This document shows positions 7,907 through 50,918 of a DNA stretch of 64,000 nt, piece by piece; position 1 is the stretch's first letter, and the number at the start of each line of letters is the position of its first letter. Origin of the DNA: Diphasiastrum complanatum. Its lineage: Eukaryota > Streptophyta > Lycopodiopsida > Lycopodiales > Lycopodiaceae. Location: the NCBI GenBank assembly GCA_029204225.1, contig CM055095.1, forward strand, positions 37,286,597 to 37,350,596, read 5' to 3'. Made by a program: the position numbers and the translations under genes. The notes beneath the pieces were generated by a model. The model did no database searches and had not been told where the DNA came from. It saw nothing but the letters and a program-made list of their open reading frames with translations.

Positions 7907-8471
7907 CTGCATGGTCACATGAATCATGATAAATCTTCGTAACATACAAGTATCACAAACGTATATTCAAAGGAGTTAAAAAGGCCAATCGTAGAATGAT
8001 CTTTCTATACTAAAATGTTCACACTATGCAAGTATCGTACAAATAGTCAGAAGAGTTAAAGAGGACAGTTGTAAAATGGACTTTCTATACTCAAAAAATA
8101 ACATCTTGTGTCTCAGGATTCAATGAACTTTCTGATAGCAAATCAGCCACGTAGTACTTGAGAACGTATTGCTAGAATTAAAAAGGGCATCTGAAAAATC
8201 TTTTCTTCCCAATATACGGGCCAAATGAGTTGGTATATTTTTCAAAAAGATTGTGTGTTTCCAAGTAAGAGATGTACTTGTTACTTTCCTGGAGTATGGC
8301 TCATAGCTTCACAGATCTTGAGAAAAATCTTGGTAAAAATATTATACCCATGGCACCAACTCGTTTTCAAGCATAATAGTTTAATGTTCTACCGCAAGGA
8401 GAGACATACAAAAAATCGTTGAAAAAATAATACAATGAGTGATCTGATCTATTTTAATTCAAAGTTCAAAA

Positions 8472-8550
8472 CATGGGTCCCGCAATACCAGGTACTGCAG
8501 GTCCCAGTACCGCGGGACCATACACGGCACCAGTATGGTCCCGCGGTACC

Positions 8551-8597
<47 letters not shown>
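8472..8597 (+). repeat. Left arm of the outer hAT MITE and its (TA)n tract
   Basis: 8472-8553 is a 5'-type terminus (CATGGGTCCCGCAATACC..., with GTACCGCGG palindromes and a terminal GTACCACAATAT). A (TA)n tract of about 42 bp follows at 8554-8596. The same 5'-type arm recurs directly after the tract as the start of hAT-A, so the two arms are direct copies. Confidence 0.8.
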
Positions 8598-10234
8598 CAT
8601 AGATCCAGCGGTACCAGGATCCACGGATCCCGGTACCGCGGATCCAGTGTGGTGCCGCGAATCCATACTGATCCGCGGTACCACAATATTTGATATTTTT
8701 TAATATTTAATATATTAATATTTTTTTTTTACCCTAATCCCCCCCCTCGCTTCATCTCTCTCCCTGCCCATCGCGCTGCTGTCCGCGCCCTCTTCTTGCT
8801 GTATGCGCCCTCTCTGTTGTCCGCGCCCTCCTCGCCATCACACTGTCTCTGCATACGACAGATCACTTCCGCCCCTGCTACTGCTATTTCCGCCATTCTT
8901 GTGGTTTTTCCAACCTTCCGCCTCCTATCGCATTCACAATCATCTCTACCTTTTTTCCCCAGTTCCTTCTATAAAAATGGTGCATTCCAACCTTGCCGAT
9001 CTGTGGGACGAGGTGGACGTTGTCAGGCGGGTTCCCAACAAGTCCAACAAGTACAATGCAAAGATCGTGCGCTGCCGATATTGCCTGGTCGAGTTCATTG
9101 CCTCCCTCACTCGCCTTAAAGGCCACCTACTCAGCGCACGCGCCAAAAATGGTGGCACACTAAATGCTGCCCCCTGTGCCAGCATGTCCGTTCCCGACAG
9201 GCAGCGACTTCTGGACACCTACGGGCCACGTCTTGTGGCGGGGGAGAACACCATTTCGGAGGGTGTTCTCCGGTTTTGCACCGCGCCTTACGTGGTTGAC
9301 CCCGAGTTGCTACCTGCTTGGCTAGCACGCACGAGGAGAGGGACTGCATCCTCGTCCAGTCCCTTTGTCTCTCACCCCCCTCAAACAGTTCCGCCAAACG
9401 CACCCCCATCTGCACCCATTCCGGTGGATCCCATCCCCTCTCGTCAGCCAATTGCCACTGCGGTTCCACCACCACCTACTGTTGCTCGCACTCCCCTAGT
9501 TTACGACTTTCTCATGGACTCTCCACACCCCGAGCAGGTGCAGGCCCAGGATGCCAGTGACGAGGCCTTCCAGGATGTTGAGGAGATCCCTTCCTCCCTC
9601 CCTTCCCATCCGGATGACCTCCCTAGCCAGCAGTTTTCGTATCCCATGCCAGATGTTCCCCCTCCACCAGTGCACCCCACTTATGCTACTGCACCCATCC
9701 TTGCCAGTGCATCCCACTCTCCCCATTCCACGTCTACAGCCGATGCATCTACTAGTGCCCAACCTGTCGCGTCATCATCCATTCCCGTCACGTTTGGTGC
9801 ACCATGCTGGAGGTCCGCTACCCGTCGCCCAGCTGGGAGAGTTCTTAGGCAGCAGAGCATTCGCGGCGCGCATCAGCCGCACATGGACAGAGAGGCTACA
9901 CAGGCCGTGGCCAGTCTGATTTATGAGCTGAACCTGACATCACCGACTCTGAGCCCTTCAAAAGGGCCTTCTGCCATGCACAGTCTGTCAGCCCTACTTG
10001 GAGAGTCCCTAGTTCAGAGGTTGTCCGCACACACATGCTGAGGGATAGGGTCGAGTCCTTGTCTAGAGAGATGGAGCCTCTGCGTCGCCACTGGGCCACT
10101 TACGGTTGCAGCATCATGTCCGATGGCTGGACTGATGTCAGGATGAGGCCGATCCTCAACATATTGGTCTCCAACTGCATGGGCACACAGCTTTTGAGGG
10201 CCGTGGATTGTAGCAGGGGGGGGAGAGTCATATC

Positions 10235-10311
10235 TGGGGTCGACGACTTTTAAAACTGGTGCTGTAGCTAAGGCTTTTTTGAGAGCATCAAAGCTCTCTT
10301 GCTGTGCGGAC
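10235..10311 (-). pseudogene. Antisense fragment of a Ty3 RT/RNase H gene inserted in the hAT-A exon
   Basis: Read on the minus strand this stretch encodes [18 protein letters not shown] plus VLKVVDP. It matches Ty3-1 at about 32686-32763 with some five mismatches over about 77 bp. It replaces about 12 bp of the hAT exon between TCATATCT and GACTTTGATGTC. There are no LTRs, TIRs or target duplication, so it looks like filler DNA copied at break repair. Confidence 0.85.
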
Positions 10312-11330
10312 TTTGATGTCATCAGGTCTTCCATCCTGTCCATAGGCACACAACATGTCGTCACGCTGATGACGGACAATGCCACGAACTGCATTCAGAT
10401 GGGTGTACTGCTAGAGGCCGAGTTCCCTCACATTGTTCATACCCCCTGTGCAGCGCACGGCATAGACCTTCTGATGGAGGACATAGGTGCACTTCCTTGG
10501 GTTAGAGCCATCGTCCGTGAGGCCCTCTTCCTGGTGACTTTTGTCACCAGGAACATGCGTGTTCTTGCCATGTTCCGGGTGTTCAGCCATCTGGACCTCT
10601 GTAAGCCAGCCCCCACACGCTTTGCATTCGACTTGGTGGTCATTGACCGTCTGATCAGGTGTAGGGCACAGCTTCTACAGATGGTTGCCAGTGATCTTTG
10701 GCGTGCCAGTACGTTTCAGCACACTGAGGATGGGGAGCACTTTTCTTCCACGGTGAGGGGAGACCAGTTCTGGAGGGATGCACAGACATTGTCAGGACTG
10801 CTTCGACCACTCTACATTGTGTTCCGCATGGCTGACAGCGAGGGGTCGACACTTGGACTGGTATATGAGCTCATGGACCGGATTGGACAGTTCCTACAGC
10901 TGCCCATCTTGCAGCCAGAGAGGTAAGCAATATAGTAATGTAATTGGCCTTTATCTTTTCAGTAATTGCTAGTTTGTTTTTCTGTCAATGTTAAGTTTTT
11001 TCGTAATGCCCTAAACCACATGCCTCTCACCTACAGGATGACCAAGCTGAAGTTCATCTGGGAGACGCGATGGAACCACTTCCACAGGAGTATCCACAAC
11101 GTTGCACACATGCTGCATCCCCTCTTCCTCTCTCCGACACAGATCGCAGACAGGGAGCTTGAGGCCGATTGGCTTCAGTACATTCACAGGGTGGGTCCAC
11201 ACATAGGTTTGGATCCTATCAAGCTCATGGAGGAGATCGCTGCATTTCGTTTCGGCATGGGCACGTTCGGCCACCCGGCTGTTCAGGATCCAGAGAGGAG
11301 GCAGCTTCCCATTACCTGGTGGGCCATGTT

Positions 11331-11505
11331 ATTGTAGAATTTGTTTTGCCATTTGCCAATGTGCCATGCAAGGATTGGAAGAGAATTGGCTTAAAGCATA
11401 AACAGAGAAAGCCAAATCGGGTCTGATACAAATTGTAAGATACATCAGACTAACGATTAGGTTTTGGTAGGGAATACCTTCCATCTTCTATTTGTTTTCC
11501 TCTAT
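11331..11505. other. 175-bp insertion in hAT-A exon 2
   Basis: Exon 2 of hAT-D reads continuously through ITWWTMFGSTYPSIQ. In hAT-A the sequence breaks after ACCTGGTGGGCCATGTT and resumes at AGCACCTATCC. The insert is AT-rich, has no coding content and no recognised termini. Confidence 0.7.
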
Positions 11506-12907
11506 AGCACCTATCCATCCATACAGCGCCTTGCACTGCGTGTCCTTTCTCGTGTATGCATTTTATTTCATCCTCCATTGTTGTGTTTCGTTGAAGTTTC
11601 ACCTTTGCCACAATGTGCTGAAGTATTTCAATGCACGCACCATAGGACTGTGCTGCCTCCGTGTGTGAGCGTAATTGGAGCACATGGACACTCATTCACA
11701 CGAGGATAAGAAACTGGTTGTCAGTGAGCCAGTTGGAGCGGTTGGTGTTCTGTAGCACCAACGCACGTCTCGCCAGGAGACTTCCGACCAATACGAGCGC
11801 ATTGCAAGCGATAAGCTATTCTCCCATAGCATGTTGGTTGACTCCTGGTATGTTGGTTTCATTTCTTGATAAAGTTGTATCGGGAGACGGGCAAGGCACA
11901 CAGGGGGGACCAGTGGCATACCTTCTTATGTTGACATGATGGAGGAGGCTCTTGATAGGGGGCAGAGTCAGCTGCACAGGGACACCCATCTTTGGCTTCT
12001 CTATCCCAGCCGGCCGCAGCTTGGGCCCAGCCTAGCCTTTGCCAGGTGATCTGCATGGGGATGATGAGGCATTGACGGCTCCCCTCGTCCGCAAGAGGCT
12101 AGGAAGGCCCAAGGGTGCACCGAACAAGAAAGGCAGGGCACAGAAACTGCCAGGGAAGAGAGGACGACCTCGCAGGGCTCCAGTTGCTGTTAGAGGTGTA
12201 GTATTACAGCCAGCGGCAGCAGGTGTTGTTGGTTTAGCCTGCTTGGGGGCTGATGCGGAGGCAGATTGGAGGATGAGGATGACGAGTCTTCCCCCTCGGA
12301 TACACAGCCCATGCCAGTTCCAGACAGGCATAGATATCAGTTGCGAGAGTCAGCTCGGGGCCCTGAGTTGTCTCCGGAGCATTCATCTGAGTTTGAGGCA
12401 GAGCATTGATTGTAGCTCTGTTATTTTATTTTTAGCAGTTTGATATCATGTTCCATGTTTGGCGGCCAGATGGTCGAACACTGTATTCAGACCATTTTCC
12501 ATACTATATTCAATGTTGGACGTACTTTATTCGCTGCACATTTTGTATTTGTTGATTTGTAATTGTTATGCTCTGTTTTCAATTCTATTTCGAATGGTAT
12601 GTGCGTAATTACAATTAGTTTCAACTGCATAGATTGATAGCAGATGCACACACAGAAATACAACCCCCTTTATAGCATTTCATAAACACACATACTACAT
12701 TGCAATACACCAGGCACGCGTTGCACAAAAAACACACCATACATTAATTCATCAGATGTATCAAAATTACAATACGTATTCCCGCCATATACAGCTGGGG
12801 CTATTTTTTACACTATGTTAGACACTAAATGTTGCCACATCTACTGCCGAAAATTACATAACAACAGTCAACCACATACGGCCAGACCCCATCTATTCTA
12901 AACATTC

Positions 12908-13255
12908 CTATGGATCCTCCATTGACTCCTCACCCTCATCAGGTGCATTGTTCTGACGCTCTCGCTCTGCCTCCCGATTAGCCCGAGCTACCTCCTGGTT
13001 AGCACGACGGCGGGCAGCCCTTTCCCTGACCATGATGAGCAGCCGCCGTGTGAAGTTCATTCCGATCTGCTCATCCAAATCCAGCTCGACAGCGGGGGCG
13101 GGGGGCACAGCGCGGGCTGGGTGCTCCGGCTCCGGATTTCTCTGCCGAGCCCGTCGCAGCATCTTTGCAATGTCTGTCTCGTTGTGCCTTCGGACATCTT
13201 CCTCGAGCTTCCTCCTGGCTTCGCCCTCAGGCCTCGGTGGTATGCGCTCCGCCAT
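12908..13255 (-). CDS. ORF2 of hAT-A, small charged coiled-coil protein (115 aa), intact
   Basis: The start ATG at 13255 gives MAERIPPRPEGEARRKLEED; the stop is at 12908. The protein is rich in Arg, Glu, Lys and Gln, with a probable coiled coil at each end. Between them lies a Pro/Ala spacer and a well-conserved centre ELDLDEQIGMNFTRR, and it ends in an acidic tail (DEGEESMEDP). It is convergent with the transposase (stop to stop about 500 bp). It is open although the transposase beside it is wrecked. The function is unknown; it resembles no domain I can name. The same gene occurs in hAT-B, C, D and at 23003-23350. Confidence 0.75.
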   Translation of the reverse strand: MAERIPPRPEGEARRKLEEDVRRHNETDIAKMLRRARQRNPEPEHPARAVPPAPAVELDLDEQIGMNFTRRLLIMVRERAARRRANQEVARANREAERERQNNAPDEGEESMEDP

Positions 13256-13279
13256 CTCACGACACCCTGTTTCTCAAAA

Positions 13280-13430
13280 TGGCTCTCACAGCCTCTCACA
13301 GCCTCTCAATGGCTCTCACTGGCTCTCTCACAGCCTCCCTCTCACAGCCTCTCTCTCGGTCTGTGACACAGCCTCTCACAACGCCTCTCTCTCACAGCCT
13401 CTCACTGGCTCTCTCACTGCCTCGTGAGTG
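13280..13430. repeat. CTCACAGCCTCT-type short tandem repeats upstream of ORF2 (hAT-A)
   Basis: Degenerate repeats of CTCACAGCCTCT/CTCACTGGCTCT lie just 5' of the ORF2 start. The same kind of array precedes every ORF2 copy (23360-23465, 24440-24550, 43680-43800, 45110-45240), so it is a conserved part of the ORF2 leader or promoter. Confidence 0.6.
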
Positions 13431-13479
13431 CCTATTTAACCCCACAACCTGTTTCCCCATTTGCATTTGTTGATGATCC

Positions 13480-13830
13480 CATGTGCTACTGTACCTCTCC
13501 CATGTATTGCTCCCCCACATGCTGCACTCCGATTGGGTCCATGGTTTGCTCCTCCACAGTGCCCATGTGACGGTGTACCTGTCTGGATGTATTGCTCCCC
13601 CACATGCTACACTCCGATTGGGTCCATGGTCTGCTCCTCCACAGTGCCCATGTGACGGTGTACCTGCCCCATGTATTGCTCCCCCACATGCTGCACTCCG
13701 ATTGGGTCCGTGGTCTGCTCCCCCACAGTGCCCATGTGACGGTGTACCTGTCCGGATTTGCTGCCCCCCCACATGCTGCACTCCCATTGACCACCAGGTC
13801 TACTCTCCCACAGTGCCCCCAGTACAGTCC
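13480..13830. repeat. About 84-bp tandem repeat, four copies, in the ORF2 upstream region (hAT-A)
   Basis: Copies start near 13506, 13591, 13675 and 13756 (spacing 85, 84, 81). Each carries ATTGCTCCCCCACATGCTGC, then CCGATTGGGTCC and a CACAGTGCCCATGTGACGG-like word. Related units of about 87 bp occur twice in hAT-C (43870-44045), twice in hAT-D (44870-45045) and about once in hAT-B (24290-24380). Position upstream of ORF2 suggests repeated promoter elements; CCGATTGG contains a CCAAT box on the minus strand. Confidence 0.7.
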
Positions 13831-14077
13831 CCTTGTACAATCCCCTGTACAGTAACATCTTTTTTCTAAACCCTAGCCCTTTTTTTTCCTGAATTTTTTA
13901 CCCTGTATTAGCCTGTTAAAAGGGTTTTTAATTAAAAAATAATAATAATAATAATAATAATAAAATATTATTTTTGTGGTGCCGCCCTGGTACCGTTGGT
14001 CTGAGGGCGGCACCATAACCGCGGTACCACCATTATGGTACCACGGTACCATAATGGCGGTACCACGTGCCACTATG

Positions 14078-14111
<34 letters not shown>

Positions 14112-14225
14112 CAAAGCAAACATGAGGGTCCGGGCCGGACACGGCGTTTTCGCATCCGCGTCCGACGCCCGGACCCGGACGCGGGGTCGGACGCGTCAGG
14201 GCCCCGGACGCGTTTTTTTTTTTTT
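14078..14225. mobile_element. (TA)n tract and left part of a GC-rich MITE (MITE-2)
   Basis: (TA)n occupies 14078-14111. From 14112 the sequence has ATGAGGGTCCGGGCCGG and repeated CCGGACGC/GTCGGACGCG words, ending in a T-run. It matches the start of the complete copy at 37601-37907. The other end of the same type of element is found at 23752-23816, so this copy may have been split by the intervening 9.5 kb. Confidence 0.65.
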
Positions 14226-14553
14226 TTTAAAAAAGGGCGATCGGGCAACAAACTGTTCCGCAAAAGCCTGAGAGGAGAGAAAGAGGGCGGAAGAGGGAGA
14301 GAGAGAGAGTGAGGGAGAGGATAGAGAGAGAGAGAGGGTTATGGTGTGTGTGTGATAATTTATGTGTGTGTGTGTGTGTGGGTTATAATTTATGTGTGTG
14401 TGTGGGTTAGTTGATTTGTGTATCACAGAGGATTTGTGTGTGCGGGCGTGTACGAGACATGGTGTGTGTGTGTGAGTTTAGGGTTTAGGGTTTAGGGTGC
14501 TTGGGTTTGGGGTCTAGGAGAAGAGAGAGCGAGAGAAATTAGTTTTGCGTGCT

Positions 14554-14607
<54 letters not shown>
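14226..14607. repeat. Microsatellite-rich leader with three TTTAGGG units
   Basis: Stretches of (GA)n and (TG)n alternate here. Positions 14477-14497 carry three tandem TTTAGGG units, the plant telomere repeat, also known as a telo-box when in promoters. It lies just 5' of the hAT-2 start codon at 14608. Too short to be a telomere remnant. Confidence 0.6.
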
Positions 14608-14608
<1 letters not shown>

Positions 14609-14858
14609 TGGCCACTCGTCCCATTTGGGGTGAGGTGGAGTTGATGCCCGACAAAAAGTGACGTTGCCCTTTTGTCGAAAGCAGTTTACAGGGAACGCCT
14701 CACGGGTTCGAGCACTTTGGGGGGGATTGCGAGTCCAACCCACAGGACGCTACGGGGCTCACATTCTCGAGGCATATGCTGAGCCCGGCGAGCCGTCCAC
14801 AGATGCCGCGGACTCTGTTTCCATTGGTGCACCCACTGCCACCGACCCTGCCACTGGT
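14608..14858 (+). pseudogene. hAT-2 transposase-like gene, 5' part (BED finger), split by Ty3-2
   Basis: ATG 14608 begins MATRPIWGEVELMPDKK and then a frameshift or stop. From about 14658 the frame continues VTLPFCRKQFTGNASRVRA, a BED-finger-like motif, then reads open to 14858. There it is interrupted by the LTR of Ty3-2. After removal of Ty3-2 and one target copy the codons run on as ...ATDPATG-TPNATAPTP... at 20151. The protein is related to, but clearly different from, the main hAT family. Confidence 0.65.
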
Positions 14859-15293
14859 ACAGTTATGGACTCGGCTCATCACATTCGTCGCGTCCATTTA
14901 CATTTACTTTACTTTATGCATAAGCAGGCCTTGGGTCCTTTTTTATTCATTAGTGACACTTAGACTATACGGTTGGCCTTTGGCCTTATTATTCATTATT
15001 AGGACATATTACTGGAGAGTGGGGGCCTTCTTGGAGGGCGCACTATTTTCCCTCCCAGTTGGGCCCTAGCCACCGGAAGCTTCCTTTTAAAGCTTCCTCT
15101 TGGCTATAAGTTGGGAAATTGTGTCATTTGTTATTCAGCTGATGATATTGATCTCTCTCTTTAGTCTCCTTAATCTCTCTCTTTCCTGCTTTCTAGGGTT
15201 AAGTCTTGCTTATGTGCTGCTTTCATAGCTTAAGTCTTGCTTATGTGATGCTTTCATAGCTTAGCTTTAGATCAGCTGTGGCTTTATTCATAA
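14859..15293 (+). repeat. Ty3-2 5' LTR
   Basis: Shares ACAGTTATGGACTCGGCTCA at its start and TTAGATCAGCTGTGGC near its end with the right LTR. It is followed after two bases by the tRNA primer site. About 435 bp. Confidence 0.85.
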
Positions 15294-15990
15294 CTTGGTA
15301 TCAGAGCACTTTCCTGATTGCTGAATTTCAGATCTGATTTTCTGATTGGGTGCCCATTTTCCTTGCTGATTTTTCTCTCTTTGCTGAGGGCTTTCGTCCC
15401 TTTGCTTCAGCAACATTCAGCACAGTTTGGAGGAGGACCAGCTCCTATCAAAGCATTTTCCTTGGCGGAGCTTTAGCAGATAGTTAGCGGAAGTACTTCC
15501 GCTAGATTTGGCGGCCGGAAAAAAAAAAAGAATTTCGGCAGATTATTTCCGGCGCCCAAGTTCCAACCCTCTATCACCCATTTTCAGCTTGTTTGCAGGC
15601 TCTCCACCGCCCAATTCCCTCATCTCTTTCATCCGTTCCTCCTCCCATTTTCAGCCTTCTCACTTTTGTTTGCAGGCTGTCCAGCCGCTTCATACTTGTC
15701 ACTTTCGTCCGTTTTTGTCTCCGTTTGCAGCCATTTTTCACACCTTGTTTGTAGGCTGTCCATCGCCCATCCTCAACCAAATTTCACAAAATTCCGACTC
15801 CGTTTGATACTCCAATTTGTCACTTGCCTCCTGGCTGTCCAACGCATTTTCACAGCCTTCATTTTCACTTTTTTCATTTGTTGATTGCTGTCCTTTCTTA
15901 GTTGTGATAATAGTGGTTTTAATAGACTAATTTGGGGTGACGACAAGAGTCCGCTCTCTCAAGTTTTCGTCTATTCCTTCCACTATCATT

Positions 15991-17080
15991 ATGGCACATT
16001 CACCTACCCCGAGTGAGACTACTCAGGAAACCTTATCCGATCAGTTTCGTCGCATGGATGAGACCCTTTCTGGCCTCGTTCTTCGCTTCGATACCGTTAT
16101 GACCGGCTTTGTTACTATGCAGTCACAGATTGATTCTTTACAGCCTCATGGTCTTGGTAAAGCTCCTGTTTTTCCTTCATTTGGGACTCCCCCTCCATTT
16201 GGATTTCCATCTTCCTCTGCTAGTCAGCCTGGTGGTGGACTGATCATTCCACCTAACCCATCTCCTGGTTTCTTTTCACGTCCCCCACTTCCTGAGCCAC
16301 ACTTTGCTCGAGACTTTCGTAATAGGGTACAGATTGCTACCTATTCCGGTTCCTCTGACGAAAACTTATTAGAGAATTGGTTTGCTAAGCTTGACACATA
16401 TTTTCAGATCTACTCTAAGACTGATCCTCAGAAGATCCAGTTGGCTGCTTTACATTTAGATGGACGCGCCGCCACGTGGTGGCGAGTTTATAGAGCTGAT
16501 CCTGATCGGGAAGGGCTCCATTTATGGCATACTTTTCGCCGTGACCTCCGTCATGCTATGATTGACCCTCAATGGATCGACCGCTAACGTGATACATTCC
16601 GTAGTCTCACTCAAACCAGTGATCTTGCTTCTTATACAGATCAGTTTATGGAGTTTTCTTATCTTTTCATAGATCTACAGCCCACTCAGCTTATTTCTCG
16701 TTACATTGCTGGGCTTCGTGGTGCTATACGTTATGATGTTTCTTCCTTCCATCCTCACACTTGTTGAGGCGATGTCTCTTGCCAGTACTTTACAACATAA
16801 GTACTCTGACACTCTTCCTTCCCGCTTCTCCTGACCCCATCCTTCTGCTTCATCTTTTCCCGCTGCATCCACCCCTACACCTGCCCCTTCTGTTCCAGCT
16901 CTCTCCATTGTCCCTTCGTCTCCTCGTCATCCGACTCCTCGACCTGCTTTTGTCCGACGTTACACGTCTGCAGAGTTCGCTGACCTTCAGCAGCAGCGTC
17001 TTTGCTTTCGTTGTAAGAGTCCTGACCATTTTGCCCGTGATTGCCATCAGCCTCTCCGTACTACTACTGCTGTTTTTTTA
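15991..17080 (+). pseudogene. Ty3-2 gag (capsid and zinc knuckle), frameshifted
   Basis: ATG 15991 (MAHSPTPSETTQETLSDQF) is preferred over the upstream in-frame codon at 15937 because the preceding residues look like leader. Residues after it carry the capsid motif LENWFAKLDTYFQIY and LDGRAATWWRVY. TAA at 16585-16587 interrupts the frame, which continues RDTFRSLTQTSDLASYTDQF. A frameshift follows near 16755. The knuckle CFRCKSPDHFARDC (CX2CX4HX4C) is at 17003-17044. Confidence 0.8.
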
Positions 17081-17239
17081 CCATGAGGGCACTACTCCAG
17101 ATGATTCCGATATCTACATTCATATTTCTGATGAGCCTGACCTATCCTCTCAGCCTTCCACTAATTTACTTCCTGCTACTTGCCATGCTCAGCTTGCCTA
17201 TGCTACTTGGACAGGACGTCCTGGTCCTCGCTCCATTCG

Positions 17240-17689
17240 GTAACGTGTACGTATTACAGGTCGTGAGTATATTGCTTTAGTTGATACTGGCAGCACTCAT
17301 TCTTTTATTAGCAGTTATATCACTCGTCAGATACGTGCTTCACCTATTCCTGCTTCACAGACTCTCACAGTTGAGGTTGCCAGTTCCCATTCTTTTCCTA
17401 GTTCTCATATGTTTCAGCGTTTACCATACCGCATTGGAGATTTTCTGGATAGGCAGATCTTTACATTATTCCTATGGAGCGTTATGATCTTATCCTTGGT
17501 GCTGATTGGTTTGCATCTCTTGGAGCCGTTACACTGGACTTGACACAGCAGACATTGACATTTGTACTTGATGCAATTACACACTCACTTGTTGGCATTG
17601 ATTCTCAGGGAGACTTCCAGTTGGTTACCGGGAAGCAATTTATGCGTAGCCTGCCAAAGGCTGACGATGCAGCTCTTTTTTCCATTTAG
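17240..17689 (+). pseudogene. Ty3-2 retroviral-type aspartic protease, frameshifted
   Basis: The catalytic segment LVDTGSTHSFISS lies at 17278-17310. In another frame MERYDLILGADWFASLGAV at 17474-17530 is the conserved C-terminal flap region of Ty3 proteases. The frame closes at TAG 17687-17689. At least one frameshift separates the two parts. Confidence 0.8.
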
Positions 17690-17764
17690 AGTACATCAGT
17701 TGCTGCTTCACTTTCACCATCCGTGGGTCCTCTTCCTCAGGTTGATGCTGCTTCGGATTTATAG

Positions 17765-19306: not shown

Positions 19307-19657
19307 CTTCCTGCTTCCACACGCGCCTGTGATGTATTCCATGTCAGTTTATTACGTGCTGCTATTGAGGATGACGCTCCTTGTGATGCTGAGTTTCCTA
19401 CTGCTCCAGAGTTATTTCCATTTTTACCTGCTGCTATATTACAGGTTCGTCTATACTATAGTCGACGCCGCCGGCAGATTCAGTTTTTGGTCCAATGGGA
19501 TGGCCGTCCTATTGAGGAGGCCACATGGGAGCCTATTGATGTCTTTTATCATACACCATCACTTGCGGATCAGGCTCGTGCTCTTGCTGCACTTGTTGAT
19601 TTCTCTACATCAGATGTTGCTCTAGTTGTTGATGCACCAAGGCTTGCTGCTACTTGA
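19307..19657 (+). pseudogene. Ty3-2 integrase tail and chromodomain
   Basis: In frame after the TAG at 19304, the sequence reads LPASTRACDVFHVSLLRAAI, then RRQIQFLVQWDGRPIEEATW and ends at TGA 19655-19657. FHVSLL and LVQWDG...EATWEP are the usual junction motif and chromodomain core of chromoviruses; the chromodomain is thought to guide integration to heterochromatin. The family normally has Gln at the stop position (YRLQLP), so CAG to TAG is likely. Confidence 0.8.
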
Positions 19658-19702
19658 TCCAATTTCTTTTCGGCAGTTGGGTCTTTTTCTTTTGTGCCAG
19701 GG

Positions 19703-20145
19703 ACAGTTATGGACTCGGCTCATTACATTCGCCGCGTCCATTTACATTTACTTTACTTCATGCATAAGCAGGCCTTGGGCCCTTTTTTATTCATTAGTGA
19801 CACTTAGACTATATGGTTGGCCTTTGGCCTTATTATTCATTATTAGGCCATTTGGACATATTACTGGAGAGTGGGGGCCTTCTTGGAGGGCGCACTATTT
19901 TCCCTCCCAGTTGAGCCCTAGCCACCGGAAGCTTCCTTTTAGAGCTTCCTCTTGGCTATAAGTTGGGAAATTGTGTCATTTGTTATTCAGCTAATGATAT
20001 TGATCTCTCTCTTTAGTCTCCTTAATCTCTCTCTTTCCTGCTTTCTAGGGTTAAGTCTTGCTTATGTGCTGCTTTCATAGCTTAAGTCTTGCTTATGTGA
20101 TGCTTTCATAGCTTAGCTTTAGATCAGCTGTGGCTTTATTCGTAA
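19703..20145 (+). repeat. Ty3-2 3' LTR
   Basis: About 443 bp, highly similar to 14859-15293. It carries CCATTTGG near 19850 that is missing from the left copy. Right flank CTGGTACACCC restores the hAT-2 codons. Confidence 0.85.
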
Positions 20146-20150
20146 CTGGT

Positions 20151-21402: not shown

Positions 21403-21408
21403 ATATTG

Positions 21409-22790: not shown

Positions 22791-22824
<34 letters not shown>
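21409..22824. repeat. Duplicated block flanking a 112-bp tandem repeat
   Basis: 21421-21594 and 22616-22824 are diverged direct copies (both contain TTTTTTTACAGT, TATTCGTGTCAT, GAAATGGTTTGC and end in (GA)n). Between them, 22275-22610 holds three units of 112 bp starting at 22275, 22387 and 22499 (ATAAGTAATTAGTAAGC, GTTGAAGTTCATCCG, GTCTCGTGGTTCCCT). Telomere-like CCCTAAACCCTAAC occurs at 21699-21712. No coding sequence. Confidence 0.65.
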
Positions 22825-22827
<3 letters not shown>

Positions 22828-25581: not shown

Positions 25582-25585
<4 letters not shown>

Positions 25586-25662: not shown

Positions 25663-25665
<3 letters not shown>

Positions 25666-29293: not shown

Positions 29294-29294
29294 C

Positions 29295-37930: not shown

Positions 37931-38355
37931 CATAGGCCCCGCGGTACTGGGTACCACGGATCCCGGTACCGCGGGACCGTACTGGTACCGCGGTACCATC
38001 ATACCATGATGGTACCGCGGTACCATAATATATTCATATAATTAATATTTAATATTTTTTCAAATTTTCTTGAACCTAATCTACCCGCCCCCCTCGCTTC
38101 TTCTCTCCCAGTTTTTTTCCAGCCATCGTTGCCCTGCCTTCGCTACTAGTTTTGCTGCCTTGCCTTCCCTGCCTTGCGTCTGATTTGCGTAGCCCTTCGC
38201 CCACAGACCGCCCTGCCTTGCATTTGATTTGCAAGAACCTGCCTTCACCCATTTCCAGCGTCTCTCACACAGTGTACCCTGTTGTTTTTTTTCCAGCGTT
38301 CCATCCTTGCAGCTTTAGGTTCATCTGCATTTTTTCCCTAGTTTTCTCCATCGCA

Positions 38356-41300: not shown

Positions 41301-42762
41301 GCCAGTGTCAGAGGATGAGCATGATGAGGATGAGCCCATTCGGGTTGTGTTTGCCAGATCAGAGAGGGATGAAGCAGATGATACAGGTGCATGGCACACG
41401 CCACGGGCAGGGGTCACAGGTGCATCACGTGGCAGAGGTGGGACACATGCCACAGGTTATACCGGGAGACAGGCAGGGCACACAGGGGGGGCCAGTGGCA
41501 TACCTACCTATGCCGACATGATGGAGGAGGCTCTTGATAGAAAGCAGAGTGATTTAGATGCCGGTCCGGCAGATGTTTGGATGCGTGCAGTACAGAGTCA
41601 TGGCCGTTACTACGACAGCACACCAGAGGAGGCACCAGATGACTTTGATTGCACAGATTGGGAGGCCATGCAAGGTCTACAAGGTGCACATGATGAGGCA
41701 CGGGATGAGGCTCGGGTTGATTCAGGGGTTGGTGCACAGGATGATTCAAAGGTTGGTGCACAGGATGATTTAGAGGCTAGTGCACAGGATGAGTCCCAGA
41801 GTCCAGAGCATTTGTATTCAGATGCCCAGCTGGACGACTTGGTTGCCACATTGGATTCAGAGGCCCAGCAGATGCCGAGTGTCAGGGCACCCCCTTCATC
41901 TCTTGCCAGCATGCCATACACCGAGTCCCAGCCAGAGCAACCGCATGAGGTGCCTACAGTTCCTCCAGCTCCTCAGAGGGTGTATGTGCGTCGCACAGCT
42001 CCTCCAGTGCCACCGATGCCATTCAGGCCTGCAGCCCCTCCATCATCGTCCACTTCTGCAGCACCAGGTCTACATGGCAGGCCACCATCTGTGCCCAGGT
42101 TTTCTCTTGCAGCGCCCACATCCACAATGGCTCCTCCAGCTGCTCCTCCAGTGGCAGCACCCACTCCACATCCTCATCCTTTGGCAGCACCCAGGATGTA
42201 CCAGGTTCGGCCACCGCAGCGCCCTTTTCAGTACATATCGCCGCTGTACTCGCCTCCTGCACATCCAGTTCCTCCACCTGCAGCAGCCCCACGGGCACAC
42301 ACTCCACGAGCTCATCCTTCTCGCTCAGGTGCACAGGGAGTTCCCTCTTTTGCTTCCCTATCCCAGTCGGCCTCAGCTTGGGCCCAGCCTAGCCAACCAA
42401 GTGATTTGCATGGGGGTGACGAGGCATTGACAGCTCCTCTTGTTCGCAAGAGACCAGGAAGGCCCAAGGGTGCACCGAACAAGAAAGGCAAGGCACAGAA
42501 ACTGCCAGGGAGGAGAGGACGACCACGCAGGGCTCCAGGTACAGGTAGAGGTGCAGTATCACAGCCAGTTGGAGCAGGTGTTGTTGGTTTGGCCTGCTTG
42601 GGGGCTGATGGGGAGGCAGACTGGGATGATGCTAGTGACAAGTCCTCCTCGGACACACAGCCCATGCCAATTCCAGACAGGCAGAGATATCGGCTGCGAG
42701 AGTCAGCTCGGGGCCCTGAGTTGTCTCCAGAGGATTCGTCTGAGTCAGAGCCAGAGCATTGA
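38356..42762 (+). pseudogene. hAT-C transposase, broken
   Basis: Exons are 38356-40222, 40337-40766, 40857-41018 and 41121-42762. The first BED Cys is Tyr (IVRYRYCLIEF). Lesions are a frameshift near 38862, TAA 39137-39139, a small deletion near 39747, TAG 40083-40085 (CAG in A and D), a base loss near 40361, an 85-bp tandem duplication in exon 2 (unit starts 40459 and 40544), TAG 40701-40703 (TGG), a lost AG acceptor before exon 3, and two extra bases in the (AG)n of exon 4. From 41284 to 42762 the tail is open for 492 codons and keeps both AT-hooks (RKRPGRPKG, GRRGRPRR). Confidence 0.88.
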
Positions 42763-43287
42763 TTGGGGCTCTGTTGTTTTAGTTTCAGTAGTTTGTCTCT
42801 AGCAGACGGTCTACCATTGTACTCAGATGATTTTTCACATTATATACAGTGTTTGGCCTACATTATTTGCTGCACATTGTGCGTATGTCGCTCTGTACAT
42901 GTGATGCTATATTTTCAATTTTATGTCAAATTCTATGTGCGTGTGATTCCTATTTTCATTTAATTTAGTTTGAAGTCAATGCTAGCTTCACATATATGCA
43001 CCTACATCATGAGCACAGAAATCACCCCTACACCCCAAACGATATTTCATAAACACATGTAATACATCTGCATTTAAAAAAATTACAGAGATTGCATCTT
43101 ACATGACCAGGCTCGCGTTACACAAAAAACAACTATGTATATATTCAACCGTTGTATCAAGATAACATCACATATACTGTCATTTTTTTAAGCAGCCATC
43201 TAGTTATTTGCTGCACCATAAACTGCCGAAAACTACATAGCAACAGTCCGCCACATACGGCTGGACCTTATGTATTCTAAACATCCC

Positions 43288-43653
43288 TCACTGATCCTCC
43301 ACCGACTCCCCACCCTCGTCTGGTGCATTGTTTTCTCGCTCTTGCTCTGCCTCCTGGTTAGCCCGAGCTGCCTCCTGGTTAGCCCGACGTCTGGCCGCCC
43401 TTTCCCTGACCATGATGAGCTACCGTCATGTGAAATTCATTCCGATCTGCTCATCCAGATCCAGCTCGACAGCGGGGACAGGATCCACAGCGGGGGCGGG
43501 TGGCTCCGGTTCCGAATTTCTCTGCCGAGTTTGTCGCAGCATCTCTCAGATATCTGCCTCTTGCTTCCGATGTCTCTCGTTCTGCCTTCGGATATCTTCC
43601 TCAAGCTTCCTCCTGGCTTCGCCCTGGGGCTTCGGTGGTATGCGCTCTGCCAT
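43288..43653 (-). pseudogene. ORF2 of hAT-C, three stops
   Basis: Same length and frame as the hAT-D gene (366 nt, ATG 43653, stop 43288-43290). Internal stops are TGA 43546-43548 and TGA 43426-43428 (both CGA in hAT-D) and TAG 43420-43422 (CAG in hAT-D). Confidence 0.85.
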
Positions 43654-44290
43654 CTCGATCGACCTTCTCCTCACAGCACCCTGGTCCTTGAACACCCTCT
43701 CACAGCACCCTGGCTCTCAAACAGCCTGTCACCGGCTCTCGCTTGCTCTCTCACTGTCTATCACTAGCTCTCTCACAGCCTCTGAAAATGCCGACCACAA
43801 TGGCATTGTGAGTGCCTATTTATCCCCACAGCCTAATCGGCCATGTGGATCCCCACAATCCATCCATGTGCCTCTATACCTGCCCCCATGTGATGCTCCC
43901 CCCTTGTGTTGGTCTCCCATTGGCCCCATGGTCTGTCACCCACAGTGCCCATGTGCCTCTGTACCTGCCCCCATGTGATGCTCCCCCCCTGTGTTGGTCT
44001 CCCATTGGCCCCATGGTCTGCTCACCCACAGTGCCCATGAGCCACTGCACCAGTCCCTTGCACCATGTGTTGTACCCTCTTTTTTTACACCCAGTACCCC
44101 TTTTTTTTCCCTTTTTTTGTCCTTTTTTAGTAAGTAATAGGCAAAAGAAAATTATTAAATATATTAAAAAAATAATAATAATAATAAATGGTACCGCCCT
44201 GGTACCGTGGATCCCAGGGTGGTACCGTACCGGCAGTACCACTGATATGGTACCGGCGGTACCATACCAGCGGTACAAGGGGGTACTATG

Positions 44291-44326
<36 letters not shown>

Positions 44327-44632
44327 AAGGAAGCGGACGGTGGGCGCGTACACGTCTGCGTCCGGACGCGTCAGGGGTGCGTCCGCATCCCCGGATGCGT
44401 CCGGTTATTTTTTTATTTTTATTTTTTAAATTTAAAAAAATAATAAATGAAGCCACGGGTGCGTACGGCAGTGCGGACACGTCCGTTTTTTATTGTTTTT
44501 AAATTTTTTTAATTCTTTTTAGGGTTTTTTAGTTAAAAAAAAAAATTCGACACGTCCGACCTTGCGTCCGGGGGTCGGACACGTCCGGGTCTGGACGCCG
44601 GACGCAGCCATTCCGGCCCGGACCATCATCCT
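44291..44632. mobile_element. (TA)n and a MITE-2 copy in reverse orientation
   Basis: (TA)n 44291-44324, then CTAAGGAAGCGGAC at 44325 through GGCCCGGACCATCATCC near 44632. The reverse complement aligns with 37601-37907. It directly abuts the hAT-D 3' arm, whose terminal CATAG and (TA)n flank are missing, so the junction truncated hAT-D by about 15 bp. Confidence 0.75.
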
Positions 44633-45272
44633 CTGGTACCGCTGGTATGGTACCGCCGGTACCATATCAGTGGTACCGCCGGTACGGTACCGCCCTGGGA
44701 TCCGCGGTACCAGGGCGGTACCATTTTTAATATTTTTTTTTATTTTTTAATATATTTTTAGTAATTTTTTTTTGCATATTAACTACCAAAAAAGGACAAA
44801 AAAAAGTAAAAAGAGGGGGTTCTGGGTGTAAAAAAAGAGGGTACAGTACATGATGCAGGGGACTGTTGCAATGGCACATGGGCACTGCGAGTGAGCAGAC
44901 CGAGGGGCCAATGGGAGACCAACACAGGGGGGTAGCATCACATGGGGGCAAGTACAGAGGCACATGGGCATTGTGGGTGAGCAGACCATGGGCCCAATGG
45001 GAGACCAACACAGGGGGGAGCATCACATGGGGGCAGGTACGGAGGCACATGGAGAGATGATGGGGATCCACATGGCCGATCAGGCTGTGGGGATAAATAG
45101 GCACTCACAATGCCATTGTGGTCGGCATTTTCAGAGGCTGTGAGAGGGCTAGTGATAGACAGTGAGAGAGCAAGCGAGAGCCGGTGACAGGCTGTGAGAG
45201 GCTGTTTGAGAGCCAGGGTGCTGTGAGAGGGTGTTCAAGGATCAGGGTGCTGTGAGGAGAAGGTCGATCGAG

Positions 45273-45638
45273 ATGGCTGAGCGAATACCACCGAAGCCCG
45301 AGGGCGAAGCCAGGAGAAAGCTTGAGGAAGATATCCGAAGGCACAACGAGAGGCATCGGAAGCAAGAGGCAGATATCCGAGAGATGCTGCGACAGACTCG
45401 ACAGAGAAATCCGGAACCGGAGCCACCCGCCCCCGCTGTGGATCCTGTCCCCGCTGTCGAGCTGGATCTGGATGAGCAGATCGGAATGAATTTCACACGA
45501 CGGCAGCTCATCATGGTCAGGGAAAGGGCGGCCAGACGTCGGGCTAACCAGGAGGCAGCTCGGGCTAACCGGGAGGCAGAGCAAGAGCGACAAAACAATG
45601 CACCAGACGAGGGCGAGGAGTCGGTGGAGGATCAGTGA
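45273..45638 (+). CDS. ORF2 of hAT-D, 121-aa charged coiled-coil protein, intact
   Basis: ATG 45273 is chosen because all five copies begin MAE(R/C)IPP at this point although the frame is open further upstream. Layout is a basic/acidic helix (residues about 10-50, RRKLEEDIRRHNERHRKQEA), a Pro-rich spacer (EPEPPAPAVDPVPA), the conserved centre ELDLDEQIGMNFTRRQL, a second Arg/Glu helix (RERAARRRANQEAARANREA) and an acidic end. No signal peptide or membrane segment. It may be a DNA- or transposase-binding helper, as second genes are in MuDR and Harbinger elements, but nothing in the sequence proves that. It is preceded by about 87-bp and CTCACAGC-type repeats. Confidence 0.75.
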   Translation: MAERIPPKPEGEARRKLEEDIRRHNERHRKQEADIREMLRQTRQRNPEPEPPAPAVDPVPAVELDLDEQIGMNFTRRQLIMVRERAARRRANQEAARANREAEQERQNNAPDEGEESVEDQ

Positions 45639-46161
45639 GGGATGTTTAGAATAGATGAGGTCCACCCGTATGTGGCGGACTGTTGCTATGTAGTTTTCGG
45701 CAGTTTATGGTGCAGCAAATAACTAGATGGCTGCTTAAAAAAATGACAGTATATGTGATGTTATCCTGATACAACGGTTGAATATATACATAGTTGTTTT
45801 TTGTGCAACGCGAGCCTGGTCATGTAAGATGCAATGTTTGTAATTTTTTTAAATGCAGATGTATTACATGTGTTTATTCAATGTCGTTTGGGGTGTACGG
45901 GTGATTGCTGTGCTCATGATGTAGGTGCATGTATGTGAAGCTAGCATTCACTTCAAACGAAATTAAATGAAAATAGGATTCACACACGCACATAGAATTC
46001 TTCAACATAAAATAAAGCATCACATGTACAGAGCGACATACGCACAATGTGCAGCAAATAATGTAGGCCAAACACTGTATATAATGTGAAAAATCATCTG
46101 AGTACAATGGTAGACCGACTGCTAGAGACAAACTACTGAAACTAAAACAATAGAGCCACAA

Positions 46162-49100
46162 TCAATGCTCTGGCTCTGACTCAGACGAATGCTCTGGAGA
46201 CAACTCAGGGCCCCGAGCTGACTCTCGCAGCCGATATCTCTGCCTGTCTGGAACTGGCATGGGCTGTGTATCCGAGGGGGAAGACTCGTCATCCTCATCC
46301 TCCCAATCAGCCTCCGCATCAGCCCCCAAGCAGGCCAAACCAACAACACCTGCTCCAACTGGCTGTGATACTGCACCTCTACCTGTACCTGGAGCCCTGC
46401 GTGGTCGTCCTCTCCTCCCTGGCAGTTTCTGTGCCTTGCCTTTCTTGTTCGGTGCACCCTTGGGCCTGCCTGGTCTCTTGCGGACAAGAGGAGCTGTCAA
46501 TGCCTCGTCACCCCCATGCAAATCACCTGGCTGGCTAGGCTGGGCCCAAGCTGAGGCCGGCTGGGATAGGGAAGCAAAAGAGGGAACTCCCTGTGCAACT
46601 GAGCGAGGAGGATGAGCTCGTGGAGTGTGTGCCCGTGGGGCTGCTGCAGGTGGAGGAACTGGCTGTGCAGGAGGCGAGTACAGTGGCGATATGTACTGAA
46701 AGGGGCGCTGTGGTGGCCGGTACTGGTACATCCTGGGTGCTGCCAAAGGAGGAGGATGTGACGTGGGTGCTGCCACTGGAGGAGCCACTGTGGATGTGGG
46801 CGCTGCAAGAGAAAACCTGGGCACAGATGGTGGCCTGCCATGGAGACCTGGTGCTGCAGAAGTGGACGGCGATGGAGGGGATGCAGGCCTAAATGGCATC
46901 GGTGGCACTGGAGGACCTGTGCGACGCACATACACCCTCTGAGGAGCTGGAGGAACTGTAGGCACCTCATGCGGCTGCTCTGGCTGGGACTCTGTGTGTG
47001 GCATGCTGGCAAGAGATGATGGGGGCGCCCTGACACTCGGCATCTGCTGGGCCTCTGAATCCAATGTGGCAACCAAGTCGGCCAGCTGGGCATCCGAATA
47101 CAAATGCTCTGGGCTCTGGGACTCATCCTGTGCACCAGCCTCTAAATCATCCTGTGCACCGACCTCTGAATCATCCTGTGCACCAACCCCTGAATCAACC
47201 CAAGCCTCATCCCGTGCCTCATCATGTGCACCCTGTAGACCCTGCATGGCCTCCCAATCTGTGCAATGAAAGTCATCAGGTGCCTCCTCTGGTGTGCTGT
47301 CGTAGTAACGGCCATGACTCTGTGCTGCACGCATCCAAACATCTGCGGGACCAGCATCTAAACCACTCTGCCCTCTATCAAGAGCCTCCTCCATCATGTC
47401 GACATAGGTAGGTATGCCACTGCCCCCCCCTGTGTGCCCTGCCTGTCTGCCGGTATAACCTGTGCCATGTGTCCCACCTCTGCCACGTGATGCACCTGTG
47501 ACCCCTGCCCGTGGCGTGTGCCCTGCACCTGTATAATCTGCCTCATCCCTCTCTGGTCTGGGAAACACAACCCGAATGGGCTCATCCTCATCATGCTCAT
47601 CCTCTGACACTGGCTCATCTGCCTCATACAATGGGGGCTCTCTGTGCTCAAGCCCAAGCTCTCTCTCTCTCATCTCGGCAAGCTCCCTCTCTCTCTCTGC
47701 CATCAACTGTGTGCCCAGGTCATCTGCAGGCATGGGATGGGTGCTGTCCGTAGGCAAGTCAACCTGGCGCTCCAAATCAGATATCTTCGTCTGCAAGGTT
47801 TAAAATTTGCATGTCAGAGAGACAACTTTTTCAAGAAATGAAACCAACATACCAGGAGTCAACCAACATGCTATGAAAGATTAGCTTATCACCTGCAATG
47901 CGCTCGTAATGGTCGGAAGCCTCCTGGCGAGACGTGCGTTGGTGCTACAGAACACCAACCGCTCCAACTGACTCACTGACAACCGGTTTCTTCTCCTCGT
48001 GTGAATCAGTGCCCATGTGCTCCAATTACGCTCACACACAGAGGCAGCACAGTCCTGTGGTGCGTGCATTGAAATACTTCAGCACATTGTGGCAAAGGTG
48101 AAACTTCAACGAAACACAAAAAATGGAGGATAAAATGAGATGCATACCTGAGAAAGGACACGCAGTGCAAGACGCTGTATAGATGGGTATGTGCTACCGA
48201 ACATGGTCCACCAGGTAATGGGTAGCTGCCTCCTCTCTGGATCCTGGGCAGCCGGGTGGCCGAATGTGCCCATGCCGAAACGAAATGCAGCGAGCTCCTC
48301 CATGAGCCTGATAGGATCCAAACCTATGTGTGGACCCACCCTGTGAATGTACTGAAGCCAATCGGCCTCGAGCTCCCTGTCTGCGATCTGTGTCGGAGAG
48401 AGGAAGAGGGGATGCAGCATGTGTGGAACGCTGTGGATACTCCTGTGGAAGTAGTTCCATCGCGTCTCCCATATGAACTTCAGCTCTGTCATCCTGCAGG
48501 TGAGGGGCATGTGGTTTAGGGCATTACGAAAAAGCTTAACATTGACAGAAAAACAAACTAGCAAGTACTGAAAAGATAAAGGTCAATTGCAACACTGTAC
48601 CGCTTACCTCTCTGGCTGCAAGATGGGCAGCTGCAGGAACTGTCCAATCCGGTCCATGAGCTCATACACCAGTCCAAGTGGCGACCCCTCGCTGTCAGCC
48701 ATGCGGAGCACAATGTAGAGTGGTCGAAGCAGTCCTGACAATGTCTGTGCATCCCTCCAGAACTGGTCTCCCCTCACCGTGGAAGAAAAGTGCTCCCCAT
48801 CCTCAGTGTGCGGAAATGTACTGGCACCCCAAAGATCACTGGCAACCATCTGTAGAAGCTGGGCCCTGCACCTGATCAAACGGTCGATGACCACCAAGTC
48901 GAATGCAAAGCGCGTGGGGGCTGGCTTACGGAGGTCCAGATGGCTAAACACCCGGAACATGGCAAGAACACGCCTCTTTCTGGTGATAAAAGTCACCAGG
49001 AAGAGGGCCTCCCGGACGATGGCTCTAACCCAGGGAAGTGCTCCAATGTCCCCCATCAAAAGGTCTATGCCGTGGGCTGCACAGGGGGTATGAACAATAT

Positions 49101-50481
49101 GAGGGAACTCGGCCTCTAGCAGTACACCCATCTGAATGCAGTTCGTGGCATTGTCCGTCACCACCGTGACGACATGCTGTGGGCCTATGGCTAGGATGGA
49201 AGACCTGATGACATCAAACATGAACTCTGCAGATATGACTCTCCCCCCCCTGCTGCAATCCACTGCCCTCAAAAACTGTGTGCCCATGCAGCTGGAGACG
49301 AGTATGTTGAGGATCGGCCTCCTCCTGACATCAGTCCAGCCATCGGACATGATGCTGCAACCGTAAGTGGCCCAGTGCCGACGCAGAGGCTCCATCTCTC
49401 TAGACAAGGACTCGACCCTATCCCTCAGCATGTGTGTGCGGACAACCTCTGAACTAGGGACTCTCCAGCTAGGGCTGACAGACTGTGCAAGGCGGAAGGC
49501 CCTTCTGAAGGGCTCAGAGTCGGTGATGGCAAAGGGCAGGTTCAGCTCGTAAACCAGACTGGCCACGGCCTGTGTGGCCTCTCTGTCCATGTGCGGCTGA
49601 TGCGCGCCGCGAATGGTCTGCTGCACGAGGGCTCTCCCTGGTGGACGACGGGTGGTGGACCTCCAGCACGGTGCACCAACCGTGACGGGAATGGACGATG
49701 ACGCGACAGGCTGGGCGCTGGTGGATGCATCGGCTGTAGACGTGGAATGGGGAGAGTGGGATGCACTGGCAGGGATGGGTGCAGCAGCATAGGTGGGGTG
49801 CACTGGTGGAGGGGCAACATCTGGCATGGGGTACGAAAACTGCTGGCTGAGGAGGTCATCCGGATGGGAAGGGAAGGAAGAAGGGATCTCTTCCACATCC
49901 TCGAAGGCCCGCCCAGTACCATCCTGGGCCTGCTCGGGTGGCGGAGAGTCCATGAGAAAGTCGTAGACTGGTGGAGTGCGAGCAACAGTGGGTGGTGGTG
50001 GAACCGCAGTGGCAACTGTCGGACGCGATGGGACGGGATCCACCGGAATCTGAGCAGATGGGGGTGCATGAGGCAGAGCTGTCTGAGGGGCAAAGGGACC
50101 AGAGGAGGATGCACTCCCTCTCCTCGTGCGTGCCAGCCAAGCAGGCAGCAACTCTGGGTTAGTCACATAAGGAGCGGTGCAAAATCGGAGAACGCCCTCC
50201 GAAATGGTGTTCTCCCCTGCCACGAGCCGCGGCCCGTAGGTGTCCAGTAGTCGCTGCCTGTCGGGGACGGTCATGCTGCCACAAGGGGCAGCATTCAAGG
50301 TGGCACCATTTTTGGCGCGTGCACCGAGCAGATGGCCTTTAAGGCGAGTGAGGGATGCAGCAAACTCGACGAGACAGTATCGGCAGCGCACGATCTTCTG
50401 ACCGGTCTTGTTGGCCTTGTGGGCAACCCGCCTGACAATGTCTACCTCGTCCCACAGACCGGAAAGGTCGGATTGCACCAT
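46162..50481 (-). CDS. hAT-D transposase, four exons, about 1336 aa, with AT-hook tail
   Basis: Exons: 50481-48608, 48493-48148, 48054-47893, 47790-46162, all GT-AG and in phase. BED finger: C33, C36, H50 (VRCRYCLVEF...RLKGH). Residues 60-290 are a Pro/Ser linker. DUF659/RNase-H-like core: D380 in MSDGWTD, D443 in VTDNATNC, C467/H470 in CAAHGIDLL, PTRF near 512. Exon 2 carries FIWETRWNYF and ends WWTMFGSTYPSIQRLALRV. Exon 3 completes the hAT dimerisation motif (LSQ-DCAASVCERNWSTW...RRRNRLSVSQLERLVF). Exon 4 is an unusual tail: acidic/Ala-rich, then Pro-rich, then AT-hooks RKRPGRPKG (about 1231-1239) and GRRGRPRR (about 1252-1259). No lesion seen, so it may still be functional. Splicing is inferred. 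Confidence 0.88.
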
Positions 50482-50801
50482 TGCAGATGAAATGAGGGAT
50501 GGATTGCTGGAAAAAAAACAGCAGGGTTCACTGTTGGAGAGACGCTAAAAATGGGCGAAGGCAGGGCGAAGCAAGTCAGATGCAAGGCAAGGCGTTGCGT
50601 GGGCGAAGGGTGACGCAAGGAATCAGAAGGCAAGTAGGCAAAAACAACAGCGATGGCAGGGCGGAGGAGGGCGCAAAAAAATTTTAGAGGAAATGCGAAG
50701 GGGGAGGGTAGGTTTAGGTCAAAAAAAAAAATTTAAAATATTAAATAATAAAAATATTATTATATTGTGGTCCCGCGGTACCCAGTACCGCGGGAACTAT
50801 G

Positions 50802-50918
50802 ATATATATATATATATATATATGGTGCCGCCCTGGTACCGCATTTTCCAGGGCGGTACCACCATTATGGTACCAGCGGTACCATAATGGCAGTACCACA
50901 TGGTTCTATGGTTCAAAA
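50802..50918 (+). repeat. (TA)n and right arm of the outer hAT MITE with target copy
   Basis: (TA)n to 50823, then a 3'-type arm (GGTGCCGCCCTGGTACCG ... CAGTACCACATGGTTCTATG) ending 50910 and GTTCAAAA at 50911-50918. The arm resembles the 3' arm of hAT-A (13978-14077). Confidence 0.8.

Follow-up and report, generated by a model that had tools for sequence, protein, structure and literature searches.

How do eight DNA transposons come to stand end to end over 42 kb of a plant chromosome without any of them having landed inside another? The question is raised by a 64,000-bp stretch of the clubmoss Diphasiastrum complanatum (the window), in which four large copies of one hAT family (hAT-1, copies A to D), a large element of a putative second hAT family (E2), two miniature inverted-repeat transposable elements (MITEs) called MITE-2a and MITE-2b, and a further one, MITE-3, follow one another between the two arms of a small hAT-1 element, most of them joined by alternating TA runs. 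We think it rather probable that this is a self-renewing (TA)n array, built by cut-and-paste transposition; its aim may come from a tail of the transposase.

The outer limits of the array define its first insertion. The interval 8472-50910 is bracketed by two identical copies of the 8-mer GTTCAAAA, which lie flush with CATGGGTCCC on the left and with TTCTATG on the right; given the base composition of the flanks, a random 8-bp match at one given flush position pair has p ~2.4e-5. When compared with the large hAT-1 copies, the left arm matches their 5' ends and the right arm their 3' ends, both alignments stopping where the TA run begins. The arms thus represent opposite termini of a single hAT-1 element with an internal deletion, which ends in CATGG and CTATG and has (TA)n in its middle. 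A derivation of the arms from two separate elements was rejected, since they are opposite ends of one family and have a duplication in common. The first-pass annotation had described an exact 8-bp repeat adjoining CATGG at 8472 and CTATG at 50910, and had proposed that the interval began as a single small arm-(TA)n-arm hAT insertion; both claims were borne out, by the flush GTTCAAAA copies (8/8) and by the match of the arms to hAT-1 ends.

Between the arms the order is hAT-A (+), E2 (+), MITE-3, hAT-B (-), MITE-2a, hAT-C (+), MITE-2b and hAT-D (-), the large copies spanning 5.5-13.5 kb with their inserts counted. None of these eight is interrupted by another DNA element (8/8). Neighbours are joined by TA runs of 12-44 bp in seven of the nine gaps; that between E2 and MITE-3 consists of TAT only, and that between MITE-2b and hAT-D has been lost, the two being fused without TA. 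Every alternating TA run of 10 bp or longer that the window contains (7/7) sits at an array junction, with none in the element bodies or in 21.5 kb of flank, and 60 dinucleotide shuffles produced no TA run of at least 12 bp. The boundaries, repeats and order given by the first-pass annotation agree with this, as does its statement that nearly every element is separated by (TA)n, the two gaps just named excepted. Its inventory had to be amended, however: what it called the first MITE-2 is E2, a 9,705-bp element with a DUF659 piece and a Ty3/gypsy element inside, and three retroelement insertions (one in E2, two in hAT-B) had been omitted.

The flanks of the inner elements bear on how they entered. 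Matches over 8 bp are complete for the outer element, hAT-B, MITE-2a and hAT-C (8/8 each) and partial for hAT-A (6/8). On either side of hAT-B and of MITE-2a the word is ATATATAT, which is pure TA and carries little weight; on both sides of hAT-C it is the imperfect word TATAATAT, flush with the element, and this points to cut-and-paste transposition with an 8-bp duplication. Placement also separates the two classes of insertion, because all the inner DNA elements lie between others (8/8), whereas none of the retroelement insertions lies in a TA run (0/3; Fisher p = 0.006, or one in 165, for one locus and for events that are possibly dependent). The best reading of the exact outer duplication, the 8-bp flanks of hAT-B, MITE-2a and hAT-C and the lack of interruption is the one originally suggested, in which hAT elements entered the (TA)n of a hAT miniature element step by step. 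The alignment of MITE-2a with MITE-2b is poor (K ~0.43), and therefore no date was assigned to them. An inverted duplication was considered as the source of the inverted pair hAT-C and hAT-D; their divergence of ~7% (438 differences over 6,125 aligned sites) and their different 5' arms favour two insertions.

Only hAT-D, which has lost one terminus, appears intact in its coding part. Conceptual splicing gives four exons, three GT-AG introns (114, 93 and 102 bp) and a stop-free product of 1,336 residues, in which Pfam recognises DUF659 (E 4.8e-40) and Dimer_Tnp_hAT (E 2.5e-8) while naming no family for exon 4. A structure model of the exon 1 frame (mean predicted local distance difference test score, 66; residues 106-303 disordered) has the Hermes transposase as its best Foldseek match, all matches at E <= 0.001 (8/8) being Hermes chains; sequence searches of the PDB with exon 1 or with the 58-residue block of the tail motifs described below returned chance matches only. 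Among the named proteins related to the catalytic part, the closest come from the fern Ceratopteris. With an 8-bp duplication, a hAT dimerisation region and RNase H-like core, and termini that start with CA, hAT-1 (the outer element and copies A to D) belongs to the hAT superfamily; CATAG/CTATG termini, as short inverted repeats, are found in hAT-A, hAT-B and hAT-C and at one end of hAT-D. The assignment of E2 and MITE-2 is putative: E2 has a DUF659 piece at 20424-20810 (Pfam, E 5.4e-15) but no hAT dimerisation region was found in it, and the 8-bp flanks of MITE-2a are pure TA. For MITE-3 neither an 8-bp duplication nor hAT-like ends were found: its flanks, CTTAGTAT and ATATTATA, do not match, and its terminus CAAAG resembles E2 in the first five bases only.

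A candidate for what aims these elements at TA is encoded by exon 4 of hAT-D, a long, proline-rich tail with the motifs RKRPGRPKG and GRRGRPRRA, which resemble AT-hooks. In hAT-1 the pair is present in copies A, C and D and deleted in B; E2 has a pair of its own, in an open reading frame (ORF) downstream of its DUF659 piece. The tail as a query found two homologues, P0029 (D. complanatum; 83% identity over 53%) and P0030 (37% identity). Both keep the first motif, and P0029 alone keeps the second, as GRP; Pfam AT_hook is listed neither for these two proteins nor for hAT-D. GRP cores in a basic context are present.

The arms and the 8-bp duplication show that the start was the insertion, at GTTCAAAA, of a miniature hAT-1 element carrying (TA)n inside. 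We propose that hAT elements related to it, from two families or more, would then have entered that (TA)n by ordinary cut-and-paste. Every insertion would duplicate 8 bp of TA and leave a TA run on either side, so that one target becomes two; the landing pad would in this way renew itself, and later copies would fall between earlier ones instead of inside them, in keeping with the order, the flanks and the lack of interruption. The tail of the BED-DUF659-hAT transposase, through its two AT-hook-like motifs, would keep the transpososome bound to the minor grooves of AT DNA. That the aim at (TA)n comes from this tail is a serious possibility, if still short of probable.

Features of the array in the window (positions count from the first base of the window; exon coordinates refer to hAT-D)
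Feature	Position	Strand	Remarks
GTTCAAAA, left target-duplication copy of outer element	8464..8471	.	
Left arm of outer hAT-1 miniature element, 82 bp	8472..8553	+	Aligned to 5' ends of hAT-A to hAT-D
TA run	8554..8597		43 bp pure plus a G
hAT-A, hAT-1 family, 5,480 bp	8598..14077	+	CATAG..CTATG; frame broken, most of tail deleted, AT-hook-like motifs kept
Two AT-hook-like motifs, hAT-A	12090..12179	+	
Small ORF, hAT-A	12908..13255	-	Also open
TA run	14078..14111		With one C
E2, putative second hAT family, 9,705 bp with insert	14112..23816	+	CAAAG..CTTAG; has a DUF659 piece
Ty3/gypsy in E2 body	14861..20147	+	5-bp duplication GGTAC; long terminal repeat (LTR) pair, gag/integrase domains
AT-hook-like motifs of E2	21166..21261	+	RGRGRPPGR ... 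GRPRGRPAKRG
Small ORF remnant, E2	23231-23350		
MITE-3, 205 bp	23820..24024	+	CAAAG..CTTTG
TA run	24025..24049		
hAT-B, hAT-1 family	24050..37588	-	Broken by two retroelement insertions and by a deletion removing the AT-hook-like motifs; flanks ATATATAT, 8/8
Small ORF remnant, hAT-B	24576-24791		
Reverse-transcriptase-bearing insert in hAT-B	25629..28297	+	Edges approximate; RVT_1 at 26970-27728, E 8.8e-21; gap in B-to-C alignment
Ty3/gypsy with chromodomain in hAT-B body	28936..35150	+	5-bp duplication TGGAC
TA run	37589..37600		
MITE-2a, 307 bp	37601..37907	+	Ends like those of E2; flanks ATATATAT, 8/8
TA run	37908..37930		Ending in TATAATAT
hAT-C, hAT-1 family, 6,360 bp	37931..44290	+	Imperfect 8-bp duplication TATAATAT on both sides
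Two AT-hook-like motifs, hAT-C	42445..42534	+	
Small ORF remnant, hAT-C	43546-43653		
TA run	44291..44324		Starting with TATAATAT
MITE-2b	44325..44631	-	Fused to hAT-D, boundary approximate
hAT-D, hAT-1 family	44632..50801	-	Coding part intact; CATAG end lost on MITE-2b side
Small ORF, hAT-D, 121 residues	45273..45638	+	
Exon 4, long C-terminal tail	46162..47790	-	
Two AT-hook-like motifs, hAT-D	46393..46482	-	
Exon 3	47893..48054	-	CERNWS.. motif
Exon 2	48148..48493	-	
Exon 1	48608..50481	-	BED-like finger and DUF659
TA run	50802..50823		
Right arm of outer hAT-1 miniature element, 87 bp	50824..50910	+	Aligned to 3' ends of hAT-A to hAT-D
GTTCAAAA, right copy	50911..50918	.	

Several observations weigh against this proposal: (i) Flanks of pure TA cannot prove a duplication, and that of hAT-C is the sole informative one; its word TATAATAT fits the Hermes target nTnnnnAn at one of the two fixed positions. 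No duplication can be read for E2, MITE-3, MITE-2b or hAT-D, and hAT-A has the partial match only. (ii) The outer insertion, which offers the sole readable non-TA target, shows that TA is not obligatory. (iii) The evidence is confined to one locus. (iv) For hAT-D, Pfam gave no AT_hook match even with E values of up to 10 allowed, and in E2 this model scored 7.1 bits against a cut-off of 17.4; P0030 lacks the second GRP. (v) With overlapping starts counted, two matches to the motif regular expression arose by chance in 21 of 20,000 shuffles of the hAT-D tail and in 352 of 20,000 shuffles of the E2 ORF; tails rich in arginine and proline yield such motifs occasionally by chance. (vi) The ratio of nonsynonymous to synonymous substitution (dN/dS) of copies A, B and C against D is 0.38-0.59 in the tail (183 codons for hAT-A, 163 for hAT-B) and 0.12-0.27 in the catalytic part, and thus the tail is only moderately constrained, less so than the catalytic part. 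Among 36 relatives of the catalytic part, GRP occurs in three (P0009, P0025 and P0037), always outside a basic tail context, and the fern tails are basic and have no GRP; most of the 36 are unable to show a tail, however, because only 16 of them reach the ER..[WF]S motif.

The preference for TA might instead lie in the catalytic core of the hAT transposase itself and in the flexibility of the DNA, in which case the tail motifs would serve nuclear entry or end binding and (TA)n would be the best local target. Hermes is reported to prefer nTnnnnAn, and Tol2 and Ds to favour flexible, TA-centred palindromic sites (PMC10368747, PMC4825651). Both GTTCAAAA and ATATATAT fit nTnnnnAn; TATAATAT, as said, does so at one position of two, and a core-intrinsic preference predicts frequent arrays among the hAT elements of other plants, of which we found none reported in the open-licence literature. 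This is a strong rival, though we hold it to be less than probable.

Nor need (TA)n be the target. It could be more a product, if slippage or gap repair had lengthened short TA targets, or TA-containing 8-bp duplications, once the elements were in place, a view that has been proposed for the maize TAFT elements, according to the SaTar paper (PMC5907723). The absence of TA runs of at least 10 bp from the 21.5 kb of flank, and the position of all seven at element ends, would suit such an origin. Against this, the outer element has TA inside only and none at its outer ends, and expansion alone leaves eight end-to-end, non-nested elements unexplained, so that targeting to TA would still be needed; we consider it unlikely.

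Very unlikely, in our opinion, is the assembly of the array from circular intermediates with TA filler by homologous recombination. This model was proposed by the authors for SaTar arrays because duplications were lacking there, and the modular architecture is the same in those arrays, where many insertions are without duplications (PMC5907723); here, by contrast, the flush TATAATAT around hAT-C, and its 8-bp length in common with the outer GTTCAAAA, are of the kind that a hAT transposase makes. Least of all do we expect an assembly artefact that joined same-family repeats through TA runs. Such runs do pose problems for assembly, and the inverted copies hAT-C and hAT-D are nearly identical, but the duplications of the outer element, of hAT-C and of the two gypsy elements (GGTAC, TGGAC) are consistent across the joins.

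Other features of the array deserve mention. All five large elements have a small convergent ORF (MAERIPPKPEGEARRKLEED...; MAERIPP... in hAT-D), open over 115-121 residues in hAT-A and hAT-D and assigned to no Pfam family. Its dN/dS is 0.14-0.20 for the pairs D-A, E2-A, E2-D and B-D, 0.28 for B-E2 and 0.67 for B-A, and it may encode a second protein of these elements. The ORF is common to two families that differ elsewhere: E2 at 22823-23436 and hAT-A at 12728-13352 are ~84% identical in DNA, a likeness confined to the 3' part with the small ORF, which suggests that the E2 and hAT-1 families may have exchanged a module. Among the retroelements, the LTR distances of the two Ty3/gypsy elements are 0.027 (GGTAC) and 0.017 (TGGAC). 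The reverse-transcriptase insert of hAT-B adjoins a CT-rich tract (25587-25662, 28290-28310), with a (CT)38 run beside it, and may also have met a microsatellite. In the right flank, Copia-type gag and pol pieces lie on opposite strands at 57278-59553.

Arrays of similar design are known outside the hAT superfamily. The SaTar elements of guayule and rice, which are Mutator-like and both non-autonomous and autonomous, form (TA)n-linked, non-nested arrays of mixed families (PMC5907723). The likeness extends to linear arrays joined by (TA)n and free of interruption, large coding elements accompanied by their small derivatives, fusion of neighbours whose linker was deleted, and some members outside TA with normal duplications (PMC5907723). 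However, SaTar elements belong to Mutator and make 10-bp duplications (PMC5907723), whereas here the transposase is of hAT type (DUF659 and hAT dimerisation) and the duplication measures 8 bp, and therefore the array works like SaTar but is not one; in addition, one imperfect duplication within TA speaks for cut-and-paste, and the miniature hAT element in which the array arose is of the same family. The Ac-mMITEs of pineapple likewise form non-nested clusters with almost pure (TA)n between them, but they are Mutator-related, make 9/10-bp duplications and were not found there to have a coding partner (PMC8449440). MuTAnT of Medicago (PMC4486113) and the microsatellite MITEs of carrot (PMC8227079) have a strong preference for TA microsatellites, one of them with a coding relative, yet both are Mutator-like with 9-bp duplications (PMC4486113, PMC8227079), and the carrot paper regards the way in which copies are directed to TA as unclear (PMC8227079). 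Micron of rice also consists of small elements in (TA)n, but is now regarded as a Mutator derivative and not as hAT (PMC12550479). Hermes and other hAT elements have the fold of the catalytic part and the 8-bp duplication; neither TA arrays nor an AT-hook-like tail were found reported for them in the portion of the source consulted (PMC10368747).

By title and abstract, the open-licence literature yielded no hAT-built array of this kind and no hAT transposase with AT-hooks. The first-pass view that a self-nesting array looks undescribed for autonomous hAT elements thus holds in part: in that literature no array built by hAT elements was found, but arrays linked by TA are known for Mutator, from SaTar (PMC5907723) and the pineapple MITEs (PMC8449440). 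The new features are the superfamily, an 8-bp duplication within TA, the origin of the array inside a family member, and the tail. The array is real; its chemistry is ordinary, its superfamily is unusual, and a testable cause is on offer: the imperfect 8-bp duplication that lies in TA argues for simple cut-and-paste in a hAT array, and the tail with AT-hook-like motifs is a concrete candidate cause for TA targeting. More tentatively, a hAT lineage, at least in clubmosses, may have acquired a C-terminal AT-hook tail that steers it into (TA)n; since every insertion would restore the TA target on either side and the miniature elements of the family carry (TA)n, such elements would construct growing landing pads for themselves, in convergence with the SaTar arrays of Mutator. 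If this is true, two transposase superfamilies would have arrived at the same self-renewing and self-protecting landing pad.

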